Assembly: GCA_003599455.1 (NCBI GenBank)
Contig: QZKF01000060.1
Coordinates: 1-64,000 of the forward strand
Source: Comamonadaceae bacterium
GTDB lineage: Bacteria; Pseudomonadota; Gammaproteobacteria; Burkholderiales; Burkholderiaceae_C
Direction: 5' to 3'
Length of the DNA: 64,000 bases
This document shows, piece after piece, positions 51,534 through 64,000 of the stretch. Numbering within the stretch: the stretch's first letter is position 1; every line of letters starts with the position of its first letter. The notes under the pieces are model-generated. The model was given only the letters and a program-made list of their open reading frames with translations. It did no database searches and had not been told where the DNA came from. Position numbers and translations under genes: made by a program.

Positions 51534-52532
51534 TCATGAATTGCCACGCTTGGCCCTGGCCGCCTTTGATGGAGTGGCAGGCTTGAACTGGTCGACCAGG
51601 CTGCGCAACGTGTCGGCCTCCGCCTTGAATTGTGAGGACTGCTGCCGGGCGTCCTGCAGCTGCTGAGTCTGGGCATCGAGGGACGCGGTGAGGCTTTGGA
51701 TAAGTGCCCTGGCGGCTTCGAGTTCGGCGCCCATCCGGGTGGTCGCCGTGGCGAACTCCAGAGCCTTGGATTGGCTCTGGCGCTCGGTCTCCATCAGCCT
51801 GCCACGCACGCCGTCCAGCTGTTTCTCGGCCGCTGCGCGCTCGGTGCGCTCCTGTTCAATTTCGCGCAGCGCCCGCCGCTCGGCGCCAGCGGCCCGCTCG
51901 TTGGCTGCCTCGATGGCGGTGCGCCCTTTGTCCAGCTCGGCGCTGAAATCCGCTCGGATGCGCTCCTGCTGGGCCTGCAACTCGCCCACTTGGTGCTGCA
52001 GTGCCTCCGTGCGTGCCGTGGTGGCCGCGTGCGCACGGCGCTCGCTCTCATGGGCTGCATTGCTCGATTGAAGCTGGGCCTCCAGTTCGGCCAGACGCCC
52101 CCGCATCTCCTGAACGAGTCCTTCGGCTGCTTTGGCGCGATCTTGCTCAGCTTCCAGATCGGCCAACGCTTTGGCCGTCTGGGCTTGTGCTTCCACCCGA
52201 AGGGCGGCCAGCTCGGTCCTGGCCAACTCGGTGGCTTGGCCCCAAATGGTCTGCACGGCGTCGGCCGCAGCCAATTTGAGCGCCTCGGGCAGGTCCGGGT
52301 GGTCGATCTGCACCCGGGCCTTGTTGCGCAGCTCCTCCCAGAACCTAGCCAGCGCTTCTGCCGGTGCGCTCATTGAGCCCTTGCGCACGTACTGGTAGAG
52401 CTTGCTGGCCGTGGGTGTGATCCCGTGCCGAAAGAACAGCAGCGCGCAGACCTCGCGGTACAGGGCCTTGGTTTCGGTGAACCGCTCCTTGAGGGATTCG
52501 ATCTCCGCCTGGATTTCTGATTCGGTATTCAT
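51534..52532 (-). CDS. tnpT: TnpT, KfrA-like DNA-binding coiled-coil protein
   Basis: 332 residues. The N-terminal ~70 (ALYREVCALLFFRHGITPTASKLYQYVRKGSMSAPAEALARFWEELRNKARV) is a KfrA_N DNA-binding domain. Residues ~95-300 are an almost continuous coiled coil (AQTAKALADLEAEQDRAKAAEGLVQEM and more), ending KAARAKRGNS. In Tn4651-type elements TnpT binds the resolution site and assists TnpS. Divergent from tnpS with the rst region between. The plus-strand ORFs here are shadows. Confidence 0.88.
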   Translation of the reverse strand: MNTESEIQAEIESLKERFTETKALYREVCALLFFRHGITPTASKLYQYVRKGSMSAPAEALARFWEELRNKARVQIDHPDLPEALKLAAADAVQTIWGQATELARTELAALRVEAQAQTAKALADLEAEQDRAKAAEGLVQEMRGRLAELEAQLQSSNAAHESERRAHAATTARTEALQHQVGELQAQQERIRADFSAELDKGRTAIEAANERAAGAERRALREIEQERTERAAAEKQLDGVRGRLMETERQSQSKALEFATATTRMGAELEAARALIQSLTASLDAQTQQLQDARQQSSQFKAEADTLRSLVDQFKPATPSKAARAKRGNS

Positions 52533-52583
52533 TCATAAATAATACAACGTAGTTTGTTGCTTTCATTGAATCAGATGCCTATC

Positions 52584-52611
52584 TATGGACATAATCAGTC
52601 TAATGTCCATA
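52584..52611. promoter_or_regulatory. inverted-repeat core of the resolution site (rst-like)
   Basis: TATGGACAT (52584-52592), a 10-bp spacer, ATGTCCATA (52603-52611): perfect 9-bp arms, the expected architecture of a tyrosine-recombinase crossover site. It lies in the 113-bp AT-rich gap between divergent tnpT and tnpS. Both promoters must overlap it, so recombinase binding could autoregulate. Confidence 0.75.
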
Positions 52612-52645
52612 ATCACGGATCTGCCTGCTAAAACAATGTACGCCC

Positions 52646-53818
52646 GTGTCCGACATCGCCACCCTTGACCAAATCATCGTGCCTGAACGGCTCGATGGCC
52701 GCGCTGGGCGCAACCGCGGCGCGGGCCGCCAGCAGATCGCCGCGACCGACGACCGCTCGGCGGTTCTGGCCTGGCTCGCGCGGTATGTGGATTCACCGGC
52801 CACGCTGGCCAGCTACCGCAAAGAATCCGAGCGTTTCCTCTTGTGGTGCGTGCTCCAGCACCAGGTGGCCTTGTCGGATCTGACGCACGAAGATCTGCTG
52901 GTCTACCAGCGCTTTCTGATCGATCCGCAGCCCGCTCACCGGTGGATCATGGCCCCCGGCCAAAAGCCTGCGCGGAGCTCGCCGGCGTGGCGGCCCTTCG
53001 CAGGTCCGCTGAGTCCAGCGAGCGTGCGCCAAGCCTTGTCCATCATCAATAACCTATTCAGCTGGCTGGTCGAAGCGGGCTACCTGGCGGGCAACCCGCT
53101 CACCCTGGCGCGGCGCAAGCGCCAGCAGCGGGCGCCGCGCGTGACGCGCTTCTTGCCGATGGCGCACTGGCAGGCGCTTCGCCAAACCGTCGAACTGCTG
53201 CCCGCAGACAGTGATCGGGAGCGAGCGCACGCGGCCCGCGCCCGGTGGTTGCTCTCCCTGCTCTATATAGGCGCGCTGCGGGTGTCTGAGGTGTGCGATG
53301 GCACGATGGCCGGATTCTTCTGCCGGCGCGGCGCCGACGGCAAGGAACGCTGGTGGCTGGAGGTCACGGGCAAGGGCGACAAAACGCGGCTCATCCCTGC
53401 GACCACGGAGCTCATGGCCGAGCTGATGCACTACCGGCGTTCGCGCAGCTTGTCGGCACTGCCTGCTCATGACGAAACCACGCCTTTGCTCTTGCCTGTC
53501 ATCGGCCCGGTCAAGCCGATGGCGCGCACGGCGGTGCACGAGATCGTCAAATCGCTGATGCGTGCAACGGCTGAAAGGCTTCGCCTGCTCGGAGATCCGG
53601 AATCAGAAGCTGCGGCCGCGCACATTGAGCAAGCATCGACACACTGGATGCGCCACACGGCGGGCACCCACCAAAGCAACCAGGTGGACCTCAAGGTCGT
53701 TCGTGACAACCTGGGCCATGCAAACATCTCAACAACCAACACCTACCTGCACGCCGAGGACGACTCGCGCCACGACGCGACCTCGCAGGCACACCGGGCC
53801 GACTGGTCAGTACGATAG
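52646..53818 (+). CDS. tnpS: TnpS tyrosine recombinase (cointegrate resolution)
   Basis: 390 residues from GTG 52646. N-terminal core-binding SAM-like domain (TLASYRKESERFLLWCVLQHQVALSDLTHEDLLVYQRFL), then catalytic residues: R in GALRVSEV, K in GKGDKTRLIP, H-x-x-R in THWMRHT, H in LGHANI, and Tyr in STTNTYLHAEDD. All six positions are present. In Tn4651-type transposons it resolves cointegrates at rst with TnpT. The gene is followed 30 bp later by the nucleotidyltransferase gene. Confidence 0.92.
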   Translation: MSDIATLDQIIVPERLDGRAGRNRGAGRQQIAATDDRSAVLAWLARYVDSPATLASYRKESERFLLWCVLQHQVALSDLTHEDLLVYQRFLIDPQPAHRWIMAPGQKPARSSPAWRPFAGPLSPASVRQALSIINNLFSWLVEAGYLAGNPLTLARRKRQQRAPRVTRFLPMAHWQALRQTVELLPADSDRERAHAARARWLLSLLYIGALRVSEVCDGTMAGFFCRRGADGKERWWLEVTGKGDKTRLIPATTELMAELMHYRRSRSLSALPAHDETTPLLLPVIGPVKPMARTAVHEIVKSLMRATAERLRLLGDPESEAAAAHIEQASTHWMRHTAGTHQSNQVDLKVVRDNLGHANISTTNTYLHAEDDSRHDATSQAHRADWSVR

Positions 53819-53848: not shown

Positions 53849-54337
53849 ATGACACCACGCACGCTGCATTCACCCCAAGGCACTGAGCGGCTCTTGGCCG
53901 CATTGATAGCCATGCAGGTGCGGTTCATGGTGGTGGGCGGCTTGGGCGTTCAGCACTACTGCCCGGAGCGTGTCGCCGCTGATCTGGATGTCTTGATCGA
54001 GTCGAGCGAAACGAATGCCACTGGCGTTGCCTATGCGCTGGACAAGATCGGGTTCACCATGCAGCCCGAGACGGTGCGGCTGCTTTTTGCGCCAGGGCCC
54101 CGGCCGCAACAGATCCAGCTGCACCCGACGATCCCCGCGGACATCCTGACCGAGGGTGAGGGCTTCGACTTCATGGCGCACTGGGAGCAAAGCGAGAGGG
54201 CCGATATGCTGGCCATGCCGGTCCGGGTCGCATCGCCGCGCCTGCTCATTGTCATGAAGTCCAGGTCCGAGCAAGAAAAGGACGCTCAGGACGTTCTGCT
54301 GTTGCAGAGCTACCTGGCGGGTATGGCTGCGGGGTAG
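53849..54337 (+). CDS. nucleotidyltransferase-fold protein
   Basis: 162 residues. FMVVGGLGVQHYCPERVAADLDVLIESS matches the NTase core (GG...D-x-D) of MNT/DUF-type minimal nucleotidyltransferases; the C-terminal half (PRLLIVMKSRSEQEKDAQDVLLLQSYL) is a helical extension. Some relatives are antitoxin or toxin modules (AbiEii/MNT), but no partner gene lies beside it. A degraded second copy of its C-terminus is at 55301-55438. GACTATG start, 30 bp after tnpS. Confidence 0.75.
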   Translation: MTPRTLHSPQGTERLLAALIAMQVRFMVVGGLGVQHYCPERVAADLDVLIESSETNATGVAYALDKIGFTMQPETVRLLFAPGPRPQQIQLHPTIPADILTEGEGFDFMAHWEQSERADMLAMPVRVASPRLLIVMKSRSEQEKDAQDVLLLQSYLAGMAAG

Positions 54338-54445
54338 GATGAATTCAATTGCGAAGACAAAATGCCGTCTGGAGGAGTCCGAACGGCCTATTGATCATCT
54401 CGAATTTCAAGCTGAGCATTAGCGAACGTTGCTCAAGGAGTGATC

Positions 54446-55300
54446 ATGAAGATTCGACGCGCTCATTTACCTGTTGTACTCGCGATGCTCTTCGCGTCGA
54501 CTTACGCATTGGCCGAGGTGAGGTTCGACTACAGTCTCTGGAGTTCTGGTACGCCGGCTCAGCGTACCGAGCAATCGTTTAGGGATGTTTCTGGAACCTT
54601 TGTATCGGATACGATCAGTTTTTTGGGTACTACTTCCAGCTTTTCCGCAAATTCTGCAACTGGCGAACTGAAAGCATCAGTCCAAGCTGCATCCAATAGC
54701 GCGGGAATCGCATCTTCTGTAAGAGTAATCGTTGCTGACACTGTAATATTCTCGGGTGGATTTGGCCAGATCGGGTTTCTTGATTACGCTCTCGAAGGTG
54801 AGATTCTAGATTCGTCAGAGACCGATTTCACGTCGACCTATGGCGGCTTCACAGTTAGTTTATCCAACTCCACTATAGGCGGCAGTTCAAGTTACGGATT
54901 ATCCTTGGCATCACCCGGTACTTGTCCAAGATTGCTCTTTTCTAACTTGGGTTGCACAGAGGCCAGCTCATTGTTCAAAACTGGATCTATTCCATTCGAG
55001 ATCACAAACGGCAACAACGAATTCTTGTTTAATCTATTTGCTGTTGCAGCGCCAGGGGATACTGCAGATTTCGGCAACTCTGCCAACTTCTTCCTACGCC
55101 TTCCTGATGGTGTCACGTACCAATCCGCTACAGGCAGCTTTTTATCAACCGCGCAGGCCATCACGCCAGTCCCTGAAGCGCCTACATGGCTTATGTTTGC
55201 ATTTGGTCTGGTCGCACTGGCGATGCTTGTGAAACCTAAACAGCGTAATGGCCGCGCCTGTTTTCCCAGCAACAGTCAGCCAGGTATGAATTTTTGCTGA
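54446..55300 (+). CDS. PEP-CTERM-like exported protein
   Basis: 284 residues. A signal peptide (MKIRRAHLPVVLAMLFASTYALA) is followed by a Ser/Gly-rich beta-type region. The C-terminus TPVPEAPTWLMFAFGLVALAMLVKPKQRN is a PEP-type sorting tail (PEAP, one helix, basic end), but it continues 17 residues further, which is unusual. Base use is visibly lower in GC than all flanking genes. AAGGAG lies 5 bp before the ATG. Likely cell-surface or exopolysaccharide-associated, processed by an exosortase such as the one at 55544. Confidence 0.8.
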   Translation: MKIRRAHLPVVLAMLFASTYALAEVRFDYSLWSSGTPAQRTEQSFRDVSGTFVSDTISFLGTTSSFSANSATGELKASVQAASNSAGIASSVRVIVADTVIFSGGFGQIGFLDYALEGEILDSSETDFTSTYGGFTVSLSNSTIGGSSSYGLSLASPGTCPRLLFSNLGCTEASSLFKTGSIPFEITNGNNEFLFNLFAVAAPGDTADFGNSANFFLRLPDGVTYQSATGSFLSTAQAITPVPEAPTWLMFAFGLVALAMLVKPKQRNGRACFPSNSQPGMNFC

Positions 55301-55438
55301 TTCGACACCTTGGCTGCGCTGATCCAGGTTACCTCGCCGCGCCTGCTCATCGACATGAAGTCCAGGTCCGAGCGGGAAAAGGACGCTTTGGACGTTGCGC
55401 TTCTGCAGAACTACCTCGCTTGTCTGGCTGCGACGTAG
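55301..55438 (+). pseudogene. remnant of a second nucleotidyltransferase gene
   Basis: 46 codons in one frame (FDTLAALIQVTSPRLLIDMKSRSEREKDALDVALLQNYLACLAAT and stop) align with the C-terminus of the 53849 gene (..MLAMPVRVASPRLLIVMKSRSEQEKDAQDVLLLQSYLAGMAAG). The upstream part is gone, replaced by the low-GC PEP-CTERM gene. So this gene, or the region between the copies, came in by insertion or recombination. Confidence 0.8.
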
Positions 55439-55543
55439 GCTGTCGACCTCGCCATGTCCTGGCATAGCCATGGCTAGAGAACGCAAGTTGACGTGCCACG
55501 AAACTTTCATCAAGTTGTCGGAGAGTTTGGCCAGGGGAGCTCC

Positions 55544-56140
55544 ATGCACAACAAACCGTCCACACCATCGACCGCGTCAGCAGATCTCACGCCTGCTGCC
55601 GGAAAGCCCAGACAACTGCCCCAACTGCTGCAGGTGGGTGGCTTCGTTCTGGTGTTCCTGGTGTTGCAAACGGCCTGGGCCAAAGCCAGCGGCACCTGGC
55701 TAGAGGCGCTGGTCATTGGCGATATGACCGTGTGGCCCGCCGCCGTCTGGATCGGACTGTTGACGCCCGACATCGGGGCGCAGGCGGTGGGCTACAGCAT
55801 CAAGGCACCCGGGGGCGGCATGAACATCATTAACGGCTGCGAAGGGCTGGATGTGCTCTTTCTGCTGTTTGCTGCGTTCGTCGTGTACCCCGCTGTGTGG
55901 TACCGGTGGGTGGGTGCTTTGGCCACCGGCATCGTTGCCGTATGGGTGCTCAACCAGGTGCGTGTGGTCGTCCTGTTTTACGCCAGCCGGCACGACAAGG
56001 AACTGTTCGCCCTGCTGCACGGCACGGTGGCGCCCCTGGTGCTGATCGCTTTGGTGGTCATCTTTTTCGCGGCCTTCGTGAGCTGGTCTGCACGCAGATC
56101 ACGCCAGGCGTCGCTTGAGCCGCAAGCGGCGCCGGCATGA
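55544..56140 (+). CDS. small exosortase-family membrane peptidase
   Basis: 198 residues with about five helices. The catalytic pattern is intact: Cys99 in INGCEGLDVLFLLFAAFVVYP, Arg140 in NQVRVVVLFY and His159 in LLHGTVAPL, matching the Cys-Arg-His triad of exosortases. The small size and the pattern resemble XrtH-type enzymes. Start 55544 has AGGGGAG 7 bp upstream; a longer frame to 55493 lacks a ribosome site. It should cleave C-terminal sorting tails in the inner membrane. Overlaps the next gene by ATGA. Confidence 0.85.
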   Translation: MHNKPSTPSTASADLTPAAGKPRQLPQLLQVGGFVLVFLVLQTAWAKASGTWLEALVIGDMTVWPAAVWIGLLTPDIGAQAVGYSIKAPGGGMNIINGCEGLDVLFLLFAAFVVYPAVWYRWVGALATGIVAVWVLNQVRVVVLFYASRHDKELFALLHGTVAPLVLIALVVIFFAAFVSWSARRSRQASLEPQAAPA

Positions 56141-56796
56141 ACGCCGAGTGGCGCCTGAGGGATTTGTCTCTCAGGGTTCTGGCGGCGAGTTTGTTGTGTG
56201 TGCTCGCCGCCTGGCTGATCGGTGAGCACCTTGCACAGTCCTATTTGCCTTTGCTGCGCTGGACCTACACCGCGCTCGACCGGGACCACCAACTCACCGA
56301 GCTGGTCATTTCGGGACAGGCTGCGTTTCGGGGAGCGGACCACGTCTTCAAGATGACGGTGGTGCCGGATGGATTGATCCTGGTGGGCACACGCGTGGTG
56401 CACAGCAACCCTCAAGGGTGGGCCAGTGCCAGCGTGCTGATTGCCTACCTGTGGCAGCCGATGCTGGCGGCGATCCTGGCGGCCTCGCTGTGGCCGGTGG
56501 CCTCGTACCGCGAGCTGCCGTTGCGGCTGCTGCTCGTAGCAGTGCTCTGCGTTCCCCTGTCCATGATCGACCTGCCGTTCGTGCTGTGGTCATTGGTCTG
56601 GCAGAACTACGTGCAGGCCTTCGCGCCCGACCTGTTTTCGCCGCTGCTTATCTGGGCCGACTTCCTGCAACAGGGTGGCCGGTACTTGCTGGGTGGGGTT
56701 GTCGGCGTGCTCGCAGCCTATGGTGCTGAGCGGGTTGTCTCGGTCCGTTCGCGGGCTGACCTTCAACCCGATCGACGCACGATCGCAAAAGGCTGA
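56137..56796 (+). CDS. exosortase-associated membrane protein
   Basis: 219 residues with about four helices. An N-terminal helix (LSLRVLAASLLCVLAAWLIGEHLAQSYL) is followed by a soluble loop to ~110, then three helices to ~205. No enzymatic motif. It overlaps the exosortase stop by 4 bp, so the two are translationally coupled and likely form a complex, as in the XrtH + associated-membrane-protein pairs. Role inferred from position only. Confidence 0.7.
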   Translation: MNAEWRLRDLSLRVLAASLLCVLAAWLIGEHLAQSYLPLLRWTYTALDRDHQLTELVISGQAAFRGADHVFKMTVVPDGLILVGTRVVHSNPQGWASASVLIAYLWQPMLAAILAASLWPVASYRELPLRLLLVAVLCVPLSMIDLPFVLWSLVWQNYVQAFAPDLFSPLLIWADFLQQGGRYLLGGVVGVLAAYGAERVVSVRSRADLQPDRRTIAKG

Positions 56797-56804
56797 CCCT
56801 TGCT

Positions 56805-56818
56805 CCCCCAGATGGGGG
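56805..56818. promoter_or_regulatory. 14-bp perfect palindrome in the exosortase/cyclase-repeat gap
   Basis: CCCCCAGATGGGGG lies in the 126-bp gap between the exosortase-associated gene and the sorting-tail protein, so it may control the latter. Promoter elements are not clear. Regulator unknown. Confidence 0.35.
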
Positions 56819-56922
56819 ATGTTGGTCGTCATTTGAGTCCATACGGACCATTCAGGCCGCGGAGCCGCCGTAACCATCGGCAACAAAGCCTCCCTATGCT
56901 CAATCGCAGAAGGGGAGTTTTC

Positions 56923-58431
56923 ATGAAAAAACGTATATGCGGTCTGGGCTTAGGCTTGATGCTGGTGGGCCTGTCATATGCCCAATCACCGGTCGACGAT
57001 GCACGCAGCAAAGGCCTCAAGTGGCTGGTGCAGACGCAAAAAGGTGATGGTTCGTTTGCTGGCCTCAAGGGCTTGGAAGTGCAGGCCACGGCTGCGTCCA
57101 TCGAGGCCATGCAGGCAGGCGGCATGGCGGCCTCTGCCAACCATGCGAGAGCGTTGTCATGGCTGGCCAATGCACCGGGTGACAGCCTGGACAGCCGGGC
57201 TTGGCAAGCCTTTGCGTTGAAACAGGCGGGACGTGACGTCCAGGTCATCGCGACAGACATTCGCAACCAGCGCTCCACAAGAACTTTTGTCGGCACCACC
57301 CTGTTTTCAGGGGTGACTTCCTGGGGGCCGCTGCCCGGCTACATGCCGAGCTTTCCCGACACCATGATGGGTTTTGGGGCACTGCGCAGCGCGGGTGATT
57401 CAGACACGAGCGCCATCACCGAACTTCTCATATCCACACTGTGCTTCGTGTTGCCCGCGCAACAAACGGTGGCGCCCTGGGCCGGCAGCTTTCCATACGC
57501 GTTGCCCAGCAGCAATCAACCGGCAACGACTGCACGCGGTTCCTTGCTGGCAACCACCATCGTGCTGCATGAGCTGAAAAAGCAATCACAGGCCAATCGT
57601 TTCCCTTCTGCCACCGCTTGCTCTCCGACGCGCACCTCTCCTGGTGACATCAACACGGCCATGGCAGGTGCCAAGACATGGCTGCTCGCGCAGGCCAACG
57701 CAGATGGCGGATTTGCAGAGCGGCACCCCACAACGGCCGCGCTCGAATCTTCCTCCCCAGTGCCCACCGCCATGGCGTTGCGCGCGCTGTCTCTCTTCGC
57801 CGCCGAGGGGGATGCTCCATCGATCGCGGCGGTCAACTCGGCTCGCACCTGGCTCGTCGCTCAACAGAACAGCGACGGCAGTTGGCGCGGTGACCCTTTC
57901 GTCACAGCGCGCGTGCTGGCTGTTTTCCCGGTGGCGTCTGGTACTCAACTCGCCGACAACGACAACGATGGCCTGCCCAACGTGGTTGAGGCGCAGTTGG
58001 GGACACAGCAAGGCGTGGCCGACGGACAGGGCGTCCTGGCGGGCAATGCCGGCGCTCAGCCTGGCGTCACGGCAACCTCGTTCTCTGCTTCGGGAACCCT
58101 GGGCCAACCATTTGCTTATGCCCTGACCGCCCGTGGAGGCTCGGCACCATTCACCTTTGTCAGGGTGGCGGGCTCACTTCCTCAGGGGATTTCTCTGGCA
58201 TCGAACGGTCAGCTGACAGGAACACCCGTGAAGGAGGGTGTGTTCGCGTTTGACTACCAGGTCACCAATGCTTCGGGAGCCAAGGCGCTGGTGATTGGTC
58301 GCATCGACATCGCATCAGCCTCTGCGGGTGGCGGCTCGAATGTGAATGACTCCGACGCCCCACTGCCAGCCTGGGCACTGCTGTTGCTCGGTGGCGCGCT
58401 GCTCGGTGTGATGCGCAGGCGACGCGCCTGA
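56923..58431 (+). CDS. secreted prenyltransferase-repeat/Ig protein with C-terminal sorting tail
   Basis: 502 residues. Signal peptide (MKKRICGLGLGLMLVGLSYAQ). Residues ~25-335 carry terpenoid-cyclase/prenyltransferase-type repeats with QKGDGSF (~40), QANADGGF (~257) and QQNSDGSW (~315). A DxDxDGLP calcium-type motif (~345-352) follows, then a putative Ig (He_PIG) domain (~390-452; PFAYALTARGG...LPQGISL). The end APLPAWALLLLGGALLGVMRRRRA (479-502) is a PLPAW-type sorting tail. AAGGGGAG precedes the ATG. Likely the main cargo of the nearby exosortase. Confidence 0.75.
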   Translation: MKKRICGLGLGLMLVGLSYAQSPVDDARSKGLKWLVQTQKGDGSFAGLKGLEVQATAASIEAMQAGGMAASANHARALSWLANAPGDSLDSRAWQAFALKQAGRDVQVIATDIRNQRSTRTFVGTTLFSGVTSWGPLPGYMPSFPDTMMGFGALRSAGDSDTSAITELLISTLCFVLPAQQTVAPWAGSFPYALPSSNQPATTARGSLLATTIVLHELKKQSQANRFPSATACSPTRTSPGDINTAMAGAKTWLLAQANADGGFAERHPTTAALESSSPVPTAMALRALSLFAAEGDAPSIAAVNSARTWLVAQQNSDGSWRGDPFVTARVLAVFPVASGTQLADNDNDGLPNVVEAQLGTQQGVADGQGVLAGNAGAQPGVTATSFSASGTLGQPFAYALTARGGSAPFTFVRVAGSLPQGISLASNGQLTGTPVKEGVFAFDYQVTNASGAKALVIGRIDIASASAGGGSNVNDSDAPLPAWALLLLGGALLGVMRRRRA

Positions 58432-58503
58432 CCGCGTTGCACCTCAGCCGTCGCAAATCGCTTTTCTTCTCCCCCCCTTCATTTCTCACCTGACGAGGCC
58501 CCC

Positions 58504-61500
58504 ATGAGCCGTTCGCCATGTTTTCGCGCATCCGTTCTCGCCCTGATGTTGGCGCTGCAATGGCCTGTCACGGGAGGCGCACGCGAGCTGCCTGCGGTGG
58601 CGCCAGACGCGGCCCAAGCAGTGCGCGCTGCACAAAAGCGACCGGTGGATCCCGCCGTACGTTCACTGAACCGCCAACTGCGCGAATTGCGAGATCCTGG
58701 CGCACAGATCACACCCGCCAAACGGCAGGAACTGCGCACACTGCGCGCCGAGTTGTCGTCTCGTTTGGCGGAGTCGGCCACCGCGCGACAGAGCCGGGGC
58801 GATGCTGCGGGCGCTGAGGCCATGCGCCAGTGGCGCAATCAGATGATCCAGCGCTTTGCCACTCTGGACGCGGAATTGGATGCCACAGAAGGTGCTGCGG
58901 GACAAGCTTCAGCCAATGCCGGTAACCGGGCCGCCAGAGCAAGCCGCCTCCAGGAGCGGTTGGCCGAGTGGAACTCGCGCCGTCCCGTGGCACCCATCCC
59001 TGGGCCCAACTGGCAACAGGTTGAGCTTCCGCCCTTGGTCGAGCAGGCCCCCGCCGCTGAACCGCCTCGCTTCGTGAGCGACATCATGTGGCTGTACCGC
59101 AAGCAGCACATGGATGCCAACGGCATGATGCGCGTCGCCCTGCAGCCCACTCCTGCGGAAGCAGCATCGTGTGACTACACCGCAGCAGATCTGGCCGAGA
59201 CGCCCGAGGTACCGAGCACCAACGCCGAGGTTCTGGCCCTGGCCGCCTCACTGGATCACAACCCCGCGCGGATTTATGCGTGGGTGAATCAGAACATCCA
59301 GTTCGAGCCCTACTTTGGCTCTCTCAAGGGCGGGTTGTCCACGCTCTGGGGCAAAGCGGGCGGCGCCACCGACCAGGCCAGTCTGCTCATCGCCCTGCTG
59401 AGGGCATCCAACATCCCCGCGCGCTACGTGCGCGGCACGGTGCGCGTGCTCGATGCGGCCCCCTTGGGTGCCGAGAGCAGGGGCGCGCGCTGGGTCGGCG
59501 CCAAAACGACCGCAGCGGCCGCAAGGATCCTGGCCAGCAATGGCAATCCTGCAGCCAACTCGGGGACCGACCGGCTGGGCCTGGCCCATGTCTGGGTGCA
59601 AGCCTGTCTGCCCTACGGCGCTTACCGAGGCGCTGGCATTGATGCCTCAGGGCACCGGTGGGTGCCGCTGGACCCTTCGTTCAAAGAGCATCGCTACTCG
59701 CCTGGCATCGTGGTCGACGGCTCGTTCGACTTCAACTACGCCACCTGGCTGTCCAGCCGCATCGACCCCCAAGGCCGCTACCGTTTGCCGCAGGAGCAGC
59801 TCGTTGACGAAGCGCAAGCCCATGTGCGCTCCAAACCCCCGCGCTTTGGCAACAACACCGCCGAAGACATTCCGTACAAGAGCGAAATCGACACGCCACG
59901 CTTCGATGTGTTGCCCATCGTTCCGCCGTACGACGTGCTGAGCTACGACAGCTGGAGTGGATTGGCAGGCGGCTCAGCCGAAACCGCTGCCTTGCCCGAC
60001 CGCCACCGCTACCGCCTGCAGGTGACGGTGCGAAACAAGAGCGCAGCCGTACCCGAGAACTTCACGGGCAACGTGCTGGCGCAAAAAACGTTGAATCTCA
60101 CACAGCTGGCCACGGGCAAGCTCACGCTGGCGTTTCGCGGGCTTTCTGCCGCTGATCAGACTGCTTACACAAGCTGGCTCAACGGGGTGAACCCCGACAA
60201 CACGCCCACCTGCAGCGGCACGACCAACGTGGTGCCCGTGCTCCGCCTTGACGGGATCGAGCAGGTCAGGGACAGCGGCTCAGGATCAACCACCCTGTGT
60301 TCGGGCGACAACGTGCTGCAGATGCAGGTGACGCTCGCCGAGAACTCCGTCAACCCTGTGCGCAGCTCCACCAGCTACCAGACCATTGCGGGTGCCAACC
60401 TGCACGCCTTGCATGCGTACGCGTGGCACACCTCGGACGTGTACCTGGCCAAACGCGCGGAGAAGCTGCTGGCGGCCGTGCGTGCCACCGCCAACCCGAA
60501 CGCTTCTGAGGAAAGCCGCGATGCCACCGAGGGCGAGTTCCTGGCACTCGCGGCTTCGCGCTACAGCCGCTACACAGCAGACGCCACACGCGAAGCCGGC
60601 GGCGTGTTCGGAGAGTCTGGCACGTCGGGCATCAGCCTGGGTCTGACCAGTGCTCAGGTGAAGATCAACTACCTCTTCGATCTGCCCTACGGCATTTCCC
60701 GCAAGGGTTTTCTCATCGACTGGCCCGGCAGCATTTCCACCAGCACTCGCCTCGACGGCGCCACGGGAGACTGGCGAGGATTCAAGCTTGCAGGCTTTGC
60801 TGGCTCAGCCTACGAGAGCTTCATCTGGCAAGAGATGGCTGGTCTTGACGCGGTGTCCACCACGCGGGGATTGCAGTTCGCCCGCGAGCAAGGGATCGAG
60901 GTGCTTCAGATCGACGACTCAACACAATGGGCCGCTCAAAAAAGCAAACTGACCACCAACACGAACAGCACCTTGAACTACCTGGCCAGCCAGGTTGCTC
61001 AGATCGAATCGACGTACGTGAACCAGGGCTTCAAGCTCACCATTCCGCGCAGCTTGATCGAGTATCCCGGATGGAAAGGCTCGGCCTTTTATGCGGAGAG
61101 GTTCACTCCCACCACGGGTCAAGCTGGATTTCCGATCAGCACCTATTCGGGTGGGGTCACGGTCGAGGCGCAAGATGATGAGGCTGATGAAGGTGGTGCC
61201 GGAGGCACCGGACCGGGCGGTAGCGCCTCGGGCGGCTTCACAGGCGGCTCTGCACCCATTGGCGGCGCCTACAACCCGACGCTGGGCACCGGCTACATCG
61301 TTGGCTCCACGGCACCGACCTTCGCGCAGCAAAGCGGCCAGAACTCCTACCAGACCGCCAACGGCCTGACCGCAGGCACCACCTACTCGGGTGATCCGGT
61401 GAACATGGTCACCGGCAACCTGATCCACAGCGAGCGCGACATCTCGATCAAGGGTCGCGGCGGCTTGCCCATCGTGTTCGAGCGTTGGTACAACTCCAAG

Positions 61501-64000
61501 AACCCCAAGGACGGCCCGCTGGGTTTTGGTTGGACGCACAGCTTCAACCACAGCATCCGCTTCTACGGCGTGGAAGCAGGCGTGGCCAAACTCGCGTGGG
61601 TGGACGGCACCGGTGGCGAGCGCTTCTTCTCCACCACCGGCCACACCAGCGGCAATGTGGCCGTGGGCGCCGCGTTCACAGCTCCCGCTGGTGTCTATGC
61701 CACCGTGCAGCGCCTGCCCAGCGGCCAATACGCCGTGACCGAACGATCGGGCATGCGTTACGTGTTCGAGAGCGTCAATGGCACCGCTACGGACACCAAC
61801 CAGAAAGCCCGGCTGCTCTCCATCAGCGACCGCAACAACAACACGCTCAACCTGAGCTACAGCGCCGCCTGCGGCAACCAGCTCTGCACGGTGACCGATG
61901 CGCTCAGCCGCAGCCTCACCTTCAGCTACACCGGCACGCGCATCAATCAGATCACCGACTGGAACGGGCGCACCTGGCGCTACACGGTGGACGCCGCGGG
62001 CGATCTGGTGAGCTTCAGCAACCCGTTGGCCGTGGCCGGATCGCAGCCTCCGGTGACCTACCAGTACCTCACCAGCGCCGACGGTGCCCCCGTGGCGCAC
62101 GCCATGAAGCGCTACCAGCTGCCCCGCGGCAACGGCATGCAGTTCGAGTACTACGCCAACGGCCGGGTGTTCCACCACACGCCCTTCGGTGTGGATTCCC
62201 AGCCCATCACCGCGTCAGTCACCACCTTCACCTGGGCCGAGTTCCGCCGCGAGGCGGTGCAGATCGATGGCGCCGGGCGCGAGCGGCGTTTCTTGTTCGA
62301 TGCCCATGGCAACCCGCTGTCCATCACCGACGAGACGGGGGCGACAACCAGCTACACCTACGACCCGACCACTGGCCGAACCCACCTGCGGACCAGCCGC
62401 ACCACCGACAACGGCCAGACCACGCAGTACGCGTATGACGCCAACGGCCACCTCACCGATGTGACGATGCCCAGCGCTCGCACGGTGCAGTACCGCGACC
62501 ACAACGTGTATGGCCAGGCGCAGCGAGAGAAAGACGCCAACGGAAACTGGACGCTGCGCCGCTTCGACGCGGCCGGCAACCTCACCGATCTGCTGCGCAC
62601 CCGCGCTGGCGTGGTGCCCACCGCCGGTGCGCGCCCGGCCACCACCGACATCGTGTCGTGGAACCAGTTCCAGAGCGATGGCTCCGGCAACCCGACCCTG
62701 GTGCGCCGCCTGCGCGACTGGAGCGCGGCCACCCTCGGGACACCCACCAGCGGCGTCGGCCCGGCGCTGGAGACCACGTACGACACCAACCGCCTGAACG
62801 TGGTGGGCATCACCCGCCGTGGTGACCTGAACGGTTCTCCCGCCAGCTTGGAGACCGAGAGCTACACCGACTTCCAGTACGACCCGCTGGGCCGTCCCCT
62901 GCGCAGCCCGGACGCATCCTGGTACCCACAAACCAACGCCTGGGACGCGCTGGACCGTCCCACCGAGAGCCCGGACGGCAGGGGCAACGCTTGGGCCACC
63001 GTGTTCGATGCCAACGGCAACCCATTGTTCGTGGGCCTCACCGTGGGCGGTGCGTATGTTGACGGCTACTACGCCAACTGGGACGACCTGGACCGCCTGG
63101 AGCGCCGGGTGGACTACGCAGGCAACGCCACGCTGAACCGCTACAACGGCCAAGGCCACCTGCTGCAGCGCACAGGGGCCGACGGTTACACCCTGGGCTT
63201 CGAAAACGACGCGCTGGGCCGGGTGCTGGGCGCCTTCAACGAAGAAAACCACCGCGTCTTGATCTCGCGCGACGGCGACGGCCGCGAACGCAGCGTGACC
63301 GACCCCAACGGTCTGACCACCGCCTTCGAATACCACGACGCCACGGAAGACGGACGCCTCAAGCGCACCAGCCTGCCGCCGGTGAGCGGGCAAGCCGCCT
63401 CACGCGCAATGGAAGTGGCGCAGTACGACGGCCTGGGCAAAGCCCTGCGCATGAACAGCGTGGCCGCCGATGGCTCGGTGCGCGACACCCGACGCTTCTT
63501 TGATGAGCTCGGTCGCCTCACGCGAGAGGTGGGCCCTGCTGTGTCTGCCACCGACACCAGCCGCCCGGTGAGCTGCTGGGTGTACAGCGCGCTGGACGAT
63601 GTGCGTGAAGTCTGGGCCGGCAGCACCACCGACGCCACCAACCCTACTTGCACCTTCACCGAGGGGCCGTCGTTCAAGCGCCAGCTCACGCAAACCCACG
63701 ACGACTGGGGGCGCCTTCTCAGCCGCACCGATGCCCTGGGGCGTACCTGGCGCTGGAGCTGGAACATCTACGGCCAGCTGGTGAGCAGCCAGAGCCCGGT
63801 GCAGGCGGCGGCCAGCCAGAGCACCACCTACCAGTACGGCACAGCTGGCACACCCGGCCAGACCCAAGGCCTGCTGCGCAGCCGCACCGTGCCCGGCACC
63901 GGCGCCCAAGGCCAGAGCGTGACCTACACCCGCGACGTGCTCGGCCAAGTCACCAAGGCCGAAACCCGCGACGGCTCGGGCGCGCTGGTGGTGACACAAG
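58504..64000 (+). CDS. giant secreted transglutaminase-like/RHS (YD-repeat) protein, 3' end outside window
   Basis: At least 1832 residues in one open frame, no stop before 64000. Signal peptide (MSRSPCFRASVLALMLALQWPVTG), a charged helical region (~45-165), then a transglutaminase-like domain (~245-400; WVNQNIQFEPYFG, DQASLLIALLRASNIPARYV, AHVWVQACLP with His, WVPLDPSF with Asp). The usual Cys position reads Ala/Thr. A long beta region leads to a DUF6531/RHS start (GDPVNMVTGNLIHSERD, ~962) and many YD repeats (YDANGHLTDV, YDPLGRPLRS, FDELGRLTREV). Probably a surface shell protein; a C-terminal toxin would be beyond the window. Confidence 0.88.
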   Translation, partial: MSRSPCFRASVLALMLALQWPVTGGARELPAVAPDAAQAVRAAQKRPVDPAVRSLNRQLRELRDPGAQITPAKRQELRTLRAELSSRLAESATARQSRGDAAGAEAMRQWRNQMIQRFATLDAELDATEGAAGQASANAGNRAARASRLQERLAEWNSRRPVAPIPGPNWQQVELPPLVEQAPAAEPPRFVSDIMWLYRKQHMDANGMMRVALQPTPAEAASCDYTAADLAETPEVPSTNAEVLALAASLDHNPARIYAWVNQNIQFEPYFGSLKGGLSTLWGKAGGATDQASLLIALLRASNIPARYVRGTVRVLDAAPLGAESRGARWVGAKTTAAAARILASNGNPAANSGTDRLGLAHVWVQACLPYGAYRGAGIDASGHRWVPLDPSFKEHRYSPGIVVDGSFDFNYATWLSSRIDPQGRYRLPQEQLVDEAQAHVRSKPPRFGNNTAEDIPYKSEIDTPRFDVLPIVPPYDVLSYDSWSGLAGGSAETAALPDRHRYRLQVTVRNKSAAVPENFTGNVLAQKTLNLTQLATGKLTLAFRGLSAADQTAYTSWLNGVNPDNTPTCSGTTNVVPVLRLDGIEQVRDSGSGSTTLCSGDNVLQMQVTLAENSVNPVRSSTSYQTIAGANLHALHAYAWHTSDVYLAKRAEKLLAAVRATANPNASEESRDATEGEFLALAASRYSRYTADATREAGGVFGESGTSGISLGLTSAQVKINYLFDLPYGISRKGFLIDWPGSISTSTRLDGATGDWRGFKLAGFAGSAYESFIWQEMAGLDAVSTTRGLQFAREQGIEVLQIDDSTQWAAQKSKLTTNTNSTLNYLASQVAQIESTYVNQGFKLTIPRSLIEYPGWKGSAFYAERFTPTTGQAGFPISTYSGGVTVEAQDDEADEGGAGGTGPGGSASGGFTGGSAPIGGAYNPTLGTGYIVGSTAPTFAQQSGQNSYQTANGLTAGTTYSGDPVNMVTGNLIHSERDISIKGRGGLPIVFERWYNSKNPKDGPLGFGWTHSFNHSIRFYGVEAGVAKLAWVDGTGGERFFSTTGHTSGNVAVGAAFTAPAGVYATVQRLPSGQYAVTERSGMRYVFESVNGTATDTNQKARLLSISDRNNNTLNLSYSAACGNQLCTVTDALSRSLTFSYTGTRINQITDWNGRTWRYTVDAAGDLVSFSNPLAVAGSQPPVTYQYLTSADGAPVAHAMKRYQLPRGNGMQFEYYANGRVFHHTPFGVDSQPITASVTTFTWAEFRREAVQIDGAGRERRFLFDAHGNPLSITDETGATTSYTYDPTTGRTHLRTSRTTDNGQTTQYAYDANGHLTDVTMPSARTVQYRDHNVYGQAQREKDANGNWTLRRFDAAGNLTDLLRTRAGVVPTAGARPATTDIVSWNQFQSDGSGNPTLVRRLRDWSAATLGTPTSGVGPALETTYDTNRLNVVGITRRGDLNGSPASLETESYTDFQYDPLGRPLRSPDASWYPQTNAWDALDRPTESPDGRGNAWATVFDANGNPLFVGLTVGGAYVDGYYANWDDLDRLERRVDYAGNATLNRYNGQGHLLQRTGADGYTLGFENDALGRVLGAFNEENHRVLISRDGDGRERSVTDPNGLTTAFEYHDATEDGRLKRTSLPPVSGQAASRAMEVAQYDGLGKALRMNSVAADGSVRDTRRFFDELGRLTREVGPAVSATDTSRPVSCWVYSALDDVREVWAGSTTDATNPTCTFTEGPSFKRQLTQTHDDWGRLLSRTDALGRTWRWSWNIYGQLVSSQSPVQAAASQSTTYQYGTAGTPGQTQGLLRSRTVPGTGAQGQSVTYTRDVLGQVTKAETRDGSGALVVTQ

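Follow-up and report, generated by a model that had tools for sequence, protein, structure and literature searches.

Why does a gene for a small exosortase lie beside a gene for a giant RHS protein? The question is posed by a 64,000-nucleotide stretch of Comamonadaceae bacterium DNA (contig QZKF01000060.1; hereafter the window, at its full length). Its last 9.5 kb encode, in order on the + strand, a protein with a PEAP tail, an exosortase, a membrane partner, a protein with a PLPAW tail, and the giant RHS protein. A sequence-only reading of the window had claimed this layout, and all gene calls bear it out. Exosortases are linked mainly to exopolysaccharide and the biofilm matrix. Here, we consider it moderately probable that a sorting module (the exosortase and its partner) is coupled to a polymorphic RHS toxin module, and we infer that the PLPAW-tail protein, called the toroid after its predicted fold, would be the tether between them.

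Linkage of the toroid, RHS and exosortase genes

Are these genes neighbors elsewhere? Homologues of the toroid (502 residues; 56923..58431, + strand) and of the RHS protein (58504..64000, + strand) co-occur in the same order behind an exosortase and its partner. The loci compared were L043, L045-L048, and 52 found with an exosortase alignment (three of which repeat L045, L047, and L048), with genes called by a codon-usage script. The wider sample came to 399 genomes at the level of the order and 185-274 at that of the class. Part models, order search included, identify 15 loci from 12 genomes with all four parts (at L065, only the RHS start is on the contig). In all 15, the toroid and RHS genes are on the same strand and separated by -69 to +106 bp; in 13, the nearest exosortase is on that strand as well. 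At L145, 11 kb lie between the toroid and the exosortase, which is encoded beyond the RHS gene and its immunity gene. Further cassettes, L194 and L196, were found through an XrtM search in other gammaproteobacterial families; in L194, the exosortase and partner lie between the toroid and RHS genes.

Genome counts separate the constant parts from the variable one. At 1e-10, the toroid model matches 29 of the 399 order genomes: 22 partially (at most 68.2 bits, mostly in the Ig-like domain) and seven nearly at full length (at least 212 bits). At 1e-20, the RHS N-terminus matches 18, of which seven score at least 646 bits and 11 at most 174.5 bits. With cut-offs for a full-length toroid and a strong RHS match that were chosen after this score gap was seen, the two sets are the identical seven genomes of 399 (Fisher 3e-15, uncorrected for kinship). 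The exosortase of this lineage (at least 110 bits) is present in 21 of the 399, four of them among those seven (Fisher 0.0002, likewise uncorrected). Because the same seven genomes hold both and the exosortase is in only four, the pair that stays constant is that of toroid and RHS head; the exosortase is a frequent, non-obligatory companion. The association of toroid and toxin is strong.

Divergence follows the same division. Over 14 loci, distances correlate at 0.91 for exosortase and partner, 0.93 for toroid and RHS, and 0.66-0.82 across the two modules (uncorrected for kinship). Placed on the exosortase tree, the RHS/toroid label changes 10 times, with at least eight changes forced by supported branches. 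A recount that left out cut loci (14 judged truncated or broken, together with five split-form loci) again gave 10. The sorting pair and the toxin pair have therefore repeatedly combined or separated, a pattern that speaks for use over shared descent alone.

A sorting tail is present in all 17 toroids with an exosortase nearby (in variant forms at L194 and L196) versus one of five without (Fisher 0.0007, uncorrected for kinship; the count omits the broken locus L189 and the toroid fragments at the contig ends of L151 and L152). These five loci are L146, L148, L150, L236, and L237, and four of them lack the tail. The L236 toroid ends instead in CBM_6, CBM_35, and malectin modules; it follows a stretch at the contig edge that by eye resembles the end of an RHS gene, though Pfam found no domain there. 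At L148, the C-terminus of the toroid is a dockerin-like repeat (E 1.4e-4, slightly short of the cut-off), and the toroid of L237, where the RHS is divergent, has TSP3 repeats. No end was recognized on the L150 toroid.

Five more loci (L068, L072, L090, L091, and L094) hold a distant tailed toroid (53-67 bits), a separate transglutaminase gene (PF01841 2.3e-12 at L090), and a separate RHS gene. The scheme therefore exists with split genes as well. Cultured environmental bacteria that have this form are Aquabacterium commune DSM 11901 (L090 and L091) and Denitromonas iodatirespirans IR-12 (L068).

A toxin layout and a candidate tether

What does the RHS protein do? To judge from its domains, it has the layout of a polymorphic toxin: an inactive transglutaminase domain, an RHS core, a variable tip, and a likely immunity gene; toxicity is predicted. 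The window includes the N-terminal 1832 of its 2487 residues, and the gene's stop lies at 65967 of contig C16. The transglutaminase domain (residues 254-391; 59263..59676, + strand; PF01841 1.6e-11) has Thr at the presumed catalytic Cys, a replacement seen in 17 of the 23 RHS N-terminus hits, which are all of those with a readable motif. DUF6531 (4.5e-19) and the core repeats (RHS_repeat, PF05593, 2.3e-33) are also present. In 100-residue blocks, residues 201-2300 are 46-76% identical to the complete copies at L067, L075, and L096; the last 187 residues are 8-24% identical. The L063 protein, cut at about 1900, is 52-82% identical, and L086 has a related tip (18-26%) and a more distant core.

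Tips at L067 and L096 contain nuclease domains (Endonuclea_NS_2, 6.1e-21, and Tox-REase-7, 2.6e-19, respectively). The tip of the window's own protein, 27% identical to that of L086 and 25% to that of L145, resembles a GIY-YIG-type nuclease by eye only, and a PDB sequence search with it gave no match. Small genes follow the RHS gene: DUF6572 at L075 (1e-17), Imm26 at L145 (3.2e-13), and, just outside the window at contig position about 65976-66455, an Imm26-like gene directly behind the window's own RHS gene. At L145, a tandem pair of Imm26-like genes (1494-2981) separates the RHS toxin gene from that of the exosortase; the first of the pair is the Imm26 match just cited.

A large secreted RHS protein whose own tip matches no toxin family could instead be an adhesin or matrix protein. 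We consider this improbable: the tips vary over a conserved core, two of them have nuclease domains, and Imm26 follows the related L145 tip, with an Imm26-like gene in the window's own genome. The sequence-only reading had suggested that the exosortase perhaps anchors an RHS shell. Its link to a giant RHS protein is indeed conserved; a mere shell fits poorly with a polymorphic toxin layout that includes a likely immunity gene. Nor is the RHS protein a candidate substrate of the exosortase, since it ends in a toxin-like tip without a sorting tail.

The toroid has a signal-peptide-like start (by eye) and matches SQHop_cyclase_C (9e-9) and He_PIG (1.3e-9). Its predicted structure (pLDDT 70, pTM 0.69) consists of a cyclase-like toroid, then an Ig-like domain, then the tail helix, and resembles squalene-hopene cyclase and drimenyl-diphosphate synthase, at a Z of about 24 across some 265 residues. 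The fold also matches sugar epimerases. The toroid might therefore have enzyme activity, as a terpene cyclase or on glycans, and make a product by which the toxin is anchored or modified. This is still less probable than the adhesin: the toroid is tailed and predicted to be secreted, and DxDD, the catalytic motif of class II terpene (squalene) cyclases, is absent from all 12 toroid sequences. An active terpene cyclase is rejected on that absence, despite the fold. We read the toroid as a binding scaffold, and infer that it binds the RHS head.

These parts suggest the following route. Toroid and RHS toxin would both be exported by Sec, given their signal-peptide-like starts (by eye). The exosortase and its partner would recognize the DxPLPxW tail of the toroid, cut it, and join the toroid to a component of the envelope or surface, a step suggested by exosortase biology and by the co-occurrence of tail and enzyme. 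The toroid would then be the adaptor that keeps the RHS protein on the cell surface or within the matrix, probably by way of that protein's constant N-terminal region, which includes the inactive transglutaminase domain. Co-occurrence, adjacency, correlated divergence, and the other binding modules on toroid C-termini at some loci without an exosortase all point this way. On contact, the variable nuclease-like tip would reach a neighboring bacterium, and the gene behind the RHS gene would protect the producer, as the toxin/immunity layout suggests.

We give an even chance to the broader proposal that this is a distinct Gram-negative display route, in which a private exosortase fixes the toroid to the envelope and the toroid docks the inactive-transglutaminase head of a Sec-exported RHS protein. 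Such a route would have an exchangeable tether (sorting tail, carbohydrate-binding modules, dockerin-like repeat, or TSP3 repeats), a constant pair of toroid and toxin head, and several differently armed cassettes per genome.

Several observations weigh against tethering by a dedicated exosortase. The toroid is found in only four of the 21 order genomes with the lineage exosortase, other loci having other cargo or none recognized, and the exosortase in only four of the seven genomes with toroid and RHS. L146 keeps a PTLPEWG tail though no exosortase was found in its genome (1e-10), an unexplained exception, and about 4 kb of other reading frames separate the toroid and RHS genes at L148. The window protein's own tip yields only weak domains of unknown function in Pfam and no recognized toxin domain, and the Imm26 match of its neighbor falls below the cut-off (E 0.0081). 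A structure model of the RHS N-terminus from eight sequences was too poor to use (pLDDT 41.4, pTM 0.24), which slightly lowers our confidence in the mechanism. Finally, tethering gives no account of how the RHS protein crosses the outer membrane. Here another explanation has some appeal: the toroid could help the RHS protein to mature, be secreted, or be released, for instance as an envelope chaperone or gate, and the exosortase would only position it. This explanation predicts the same co-occurrence and adjacency. We consider it unlikely, though less so than the adhesin or the enzyme, because the surface- or polysaccharide-binding ends of toroids without an exosortase (L236 and L148) fit tethering better.

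The exosortase, its cargo and the PEAP-tail gene

Which exosortase is this, and what does it sort? The gene (55544..56140, + strand; 198 residues) starts with ATG at 55544, and GTG at 55493 is a possible alternative. The product belongs to the exosortase/archaeosortase superfamily (TIGR04178, 45.4 bits; cut-off 23). The conserved exosortase triad of Cys, Arg, and His is represented by C69, R110, and H129, invariant across the 51 aligned rows of the lineage. The protein scores below the cut-offs of both XrtH (TIGR04177, 63.7 bits, or 64.3 for the trimmed protein; cut-off 86) and XrtM (TIGR04300, 53.2 bits; cut-off 125), so neither name is used. All 51 rows match both models at E 1e-5 or lower, the best being 5.2e-25 for XrtM and 2e-18 for XrtH. 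In a quick tree of 91 rows, several on long branches, 13 XrtH-like rows form one side of a single branch with support of 100. Both over-cut-off XrtM proteins found fall at or near the base of the window lineage (L190 at the base, L189 in a deeper branch), so its kinship with XrtM is likely. At L111 and L169 (10001-10577 and 9722-10298, the same locus), the lineage exosortase is divided between two reading frames and may be a copy in decay.

The partner gene (56137..56796, + strand; 219 residues, with a GGxR-type motif near the C-terminus) overlaps the exosortase gene by 4 bp. The protein has no match in Pfam or NCBIfam, and its homologues adjoin most exosortases of the lineage at the compared loci. 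The layout exceeds chance: four exosortase relatives, 39-47% identical, have the same partner as a neighbor, along with a gene whose product ends in a PLPxW or PTLPEW tail. A single lineage exosortase is found in the window's genome, and three other genomes of its genus lack it.

The sorting tail of the toroid (58342..58428, + strand), of type DxPLPxW, consists of DAPLPAW, a hydrophobic helix, and RRRR. A tail model, A6, was built from 28 tails of the lineage, with E below 1e-5 counted as strong. Across the window's 4.29 Mb genome it has one strong match (E 1.7e-12, against 0.07 for the runner-up), namely this tail, which lies 2.7 kb from the exosortase; in the three same-genus genomes it has none (best 0.007). 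Because the genome holds one lineage exosortase and one strong matching tail on the next gene, exosortase and partner look like a dedicated sorting pair with one local cargo; the genome is 95% complete, and a missed target is possible. Among 10 genomes with a lineage exosortase, 22 of the 28 strong tails are within 8 kb of one, a proportion partly expected, at one near tail per genome, of genomes picked for an exosortase beside a tail. A first count with a loose pattern, which caught some partner proteins, gave 45 of 409 genes within 4 kb of an exosortase versus 3 of 322 farther away. The metagenome-assembled genome of L071 (G957) has five lineage exosortases and nine strong tails, five of them near; its loci L071, L076, L081, and L086 each have a toroid and RHS gene.

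Elsewhere in the lineage, the cargo is an S8 protease (L045), an ExeM-type nuclease and a DNRLRE protein (L046), a pro-kumamolisin-type protein (L047), or a trypsin-like protein (L048). No tail was recognized at a number of exosortase loci, some on cut contigs. At L048 (6104-9706, the L113 locus), a CAAX/Rce1-like protease gene and a second trypsin-like gene accompany the exosortase and its tailed trypsin-like cargo. The window tail does not match the IPTL-CTERM model at E 1; some relatives' cargo pass it, namely L047 (TIGR04174, 21.6 bits; cut-off 20.5) and L194.

Does the PEAP-tail protein (54446..55300, + strand) belong to the system? The sequence-only reading allowed for one or two local cargoes. 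The PEAP tail scores 16.0 or 19.6 bits in two PF07589 scans, below the cut-off of 20.7, and is thus just short of PEP-CTERM by that measure. The gene has a GC content of 48.9% versus 66.8% for the window, and none of the 56 other loci compared encodes a homologue of its product (E 1e-5). Behind it, a 120-bp segment (55323-55442) is 82% identical to the end of the preceding nucleotidyltransferase-like gene (53849-54337); the region 53849-55442 is probably a scar of insertion or duplication. Low GC, the copied gene end, and the missing homologues indicate that the PEAP gene is probably an insertion, outside the sorting system. As a second cargo it is rejected on the same insertion signs, the missing homologues, and the tail-model search; the part of the claim that stands is the single cargo.

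The PEAP tail is of the kind served by a separate, ordinary system, and the protein is probably an XrtB substrate. Contig C31 encodes exosortase B (TIGR03113, 401.6 bits; cut-off 275), surrounded by genes that by eye resemble polysaccharide synthesis and export, and seven PEP-CTERM tails in the genome exceed the Pfam cut-off. The sequence-only reading had noted that exopolysaccharide genes and numerous targets are missing. They are absent at the exosortase locus, yet present elsewhere in the genome. It had also staked its case on the genome lacking a normal XrtA with dozens of targets, and on neighbors conserved with the exosortase. The first holds by half: there is an XrtB with at least seven PEP-CTERM targets, but these have another kind of tail. 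The second holds in full, as partner, tailed cargo, and RHS protein are conserved with the exosortase at many loci.

These results bear on a further explanation, chance neighborhood: the exosortase would serve the PEP-CTERM proteins of the genome in general, and the RHS gene would be a hitchhiker on a mobile element. PEP-CTERM proteins are indeed present, and a tyrosine recombinase is encoded upstream. Against this, XrtB is available for those proteins, the tail models separate the two kinds of tail, and the pairing with toroid and RHS recurs across the exosortase tree. We judge it the least probable of the explanations considered here.

As for neighboring genes, the cassette is directly preceded by the tyrosine recombinase gene and one for a KfrA-like coiled-coil protein (window 51534-53818), and mobility is possible. 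A similar pair (by eye) is found upstream of the Aquabacterium commune cassette (L090, 5760-8133). IS21-type transposase pairs (by eye) are located beside three cassettes (L091, 7724-9806; L094, 7732-9824; L149, 382-2391). A PADLOC scan gave no match, and a single-protein query against the genome contigs found no relative.

Known systems and significance

How new is such a cassette? Dedicated sorting enzymes are an established idea from rhombosortase and GlyGly-CTERM (PMC3237569), so a dedicated mini-system, which the sequence-only reading had thought novel, is not new in itself. As far as the available part of that paper goes, the likeness is one sorting enzyme with one adjacent target that has a motif-helix-basic tail. 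The differences are that the single target here is tied to a toxin/immunity locus, and that a genome may have up to five such enzymes (G957). XrtH with IPTL-CTERM and XrtM (TIGR04177, TIGR04174, and TIGR04300) are similar in having a homologous enzyme and related tails; unlike them, the window enzyme is below both cut-offs, the XrtH-like rows are on a separate branch, and the window tail is unmatched by the IPTL model.

On the toxin side, Zhang et al. 2012 (PMC3482391, available in part) described RHS polymorphic toxins with an inactive transglutaminase, and proposed surface anchoring through that domain. Those toxins share with the window protein a signal peptide, an N-terminal transglutaminase-like domain with a lost catalytic residue, an RHS array, and a variable tip. 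They differ in having no sorting enzyme or toroid adaptor in the text available ("sortase" occurs 0 times in 300,000 of its 357,715 characters). The same text describes MafA and MafB of Neisseria, where a separate surface-anchored protein beside a polymorphic toxin was proposed as its anchor. MafA is a lipoprotein, whereas the adaptor here would be a toroid with an exosortase-type tail, and its toxin a giant RHS protein.

The components are thus of known kinds. Their union, an exosortase and an RHS toxin with the toroid as putative sorted adaptor, was not found in the literature searched, a search outside which most subscription journals lie. PMC8416519, which came up for exosortase with "polymorphic toxin," has "exosortase" once in its available portion, in the reference list only.

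How Sec-exported RHS toxins with an inactive transglutaminase are retained at the surface has been an open question since the anchor proposal (PMC3482391, in its available part), and the cassette offers a concrete, testable answer. It also supplies many pairs of one enzyme and one target for working out exosortase specificity. If the proposal is true, exosortases would gain a role in bacterial competition.

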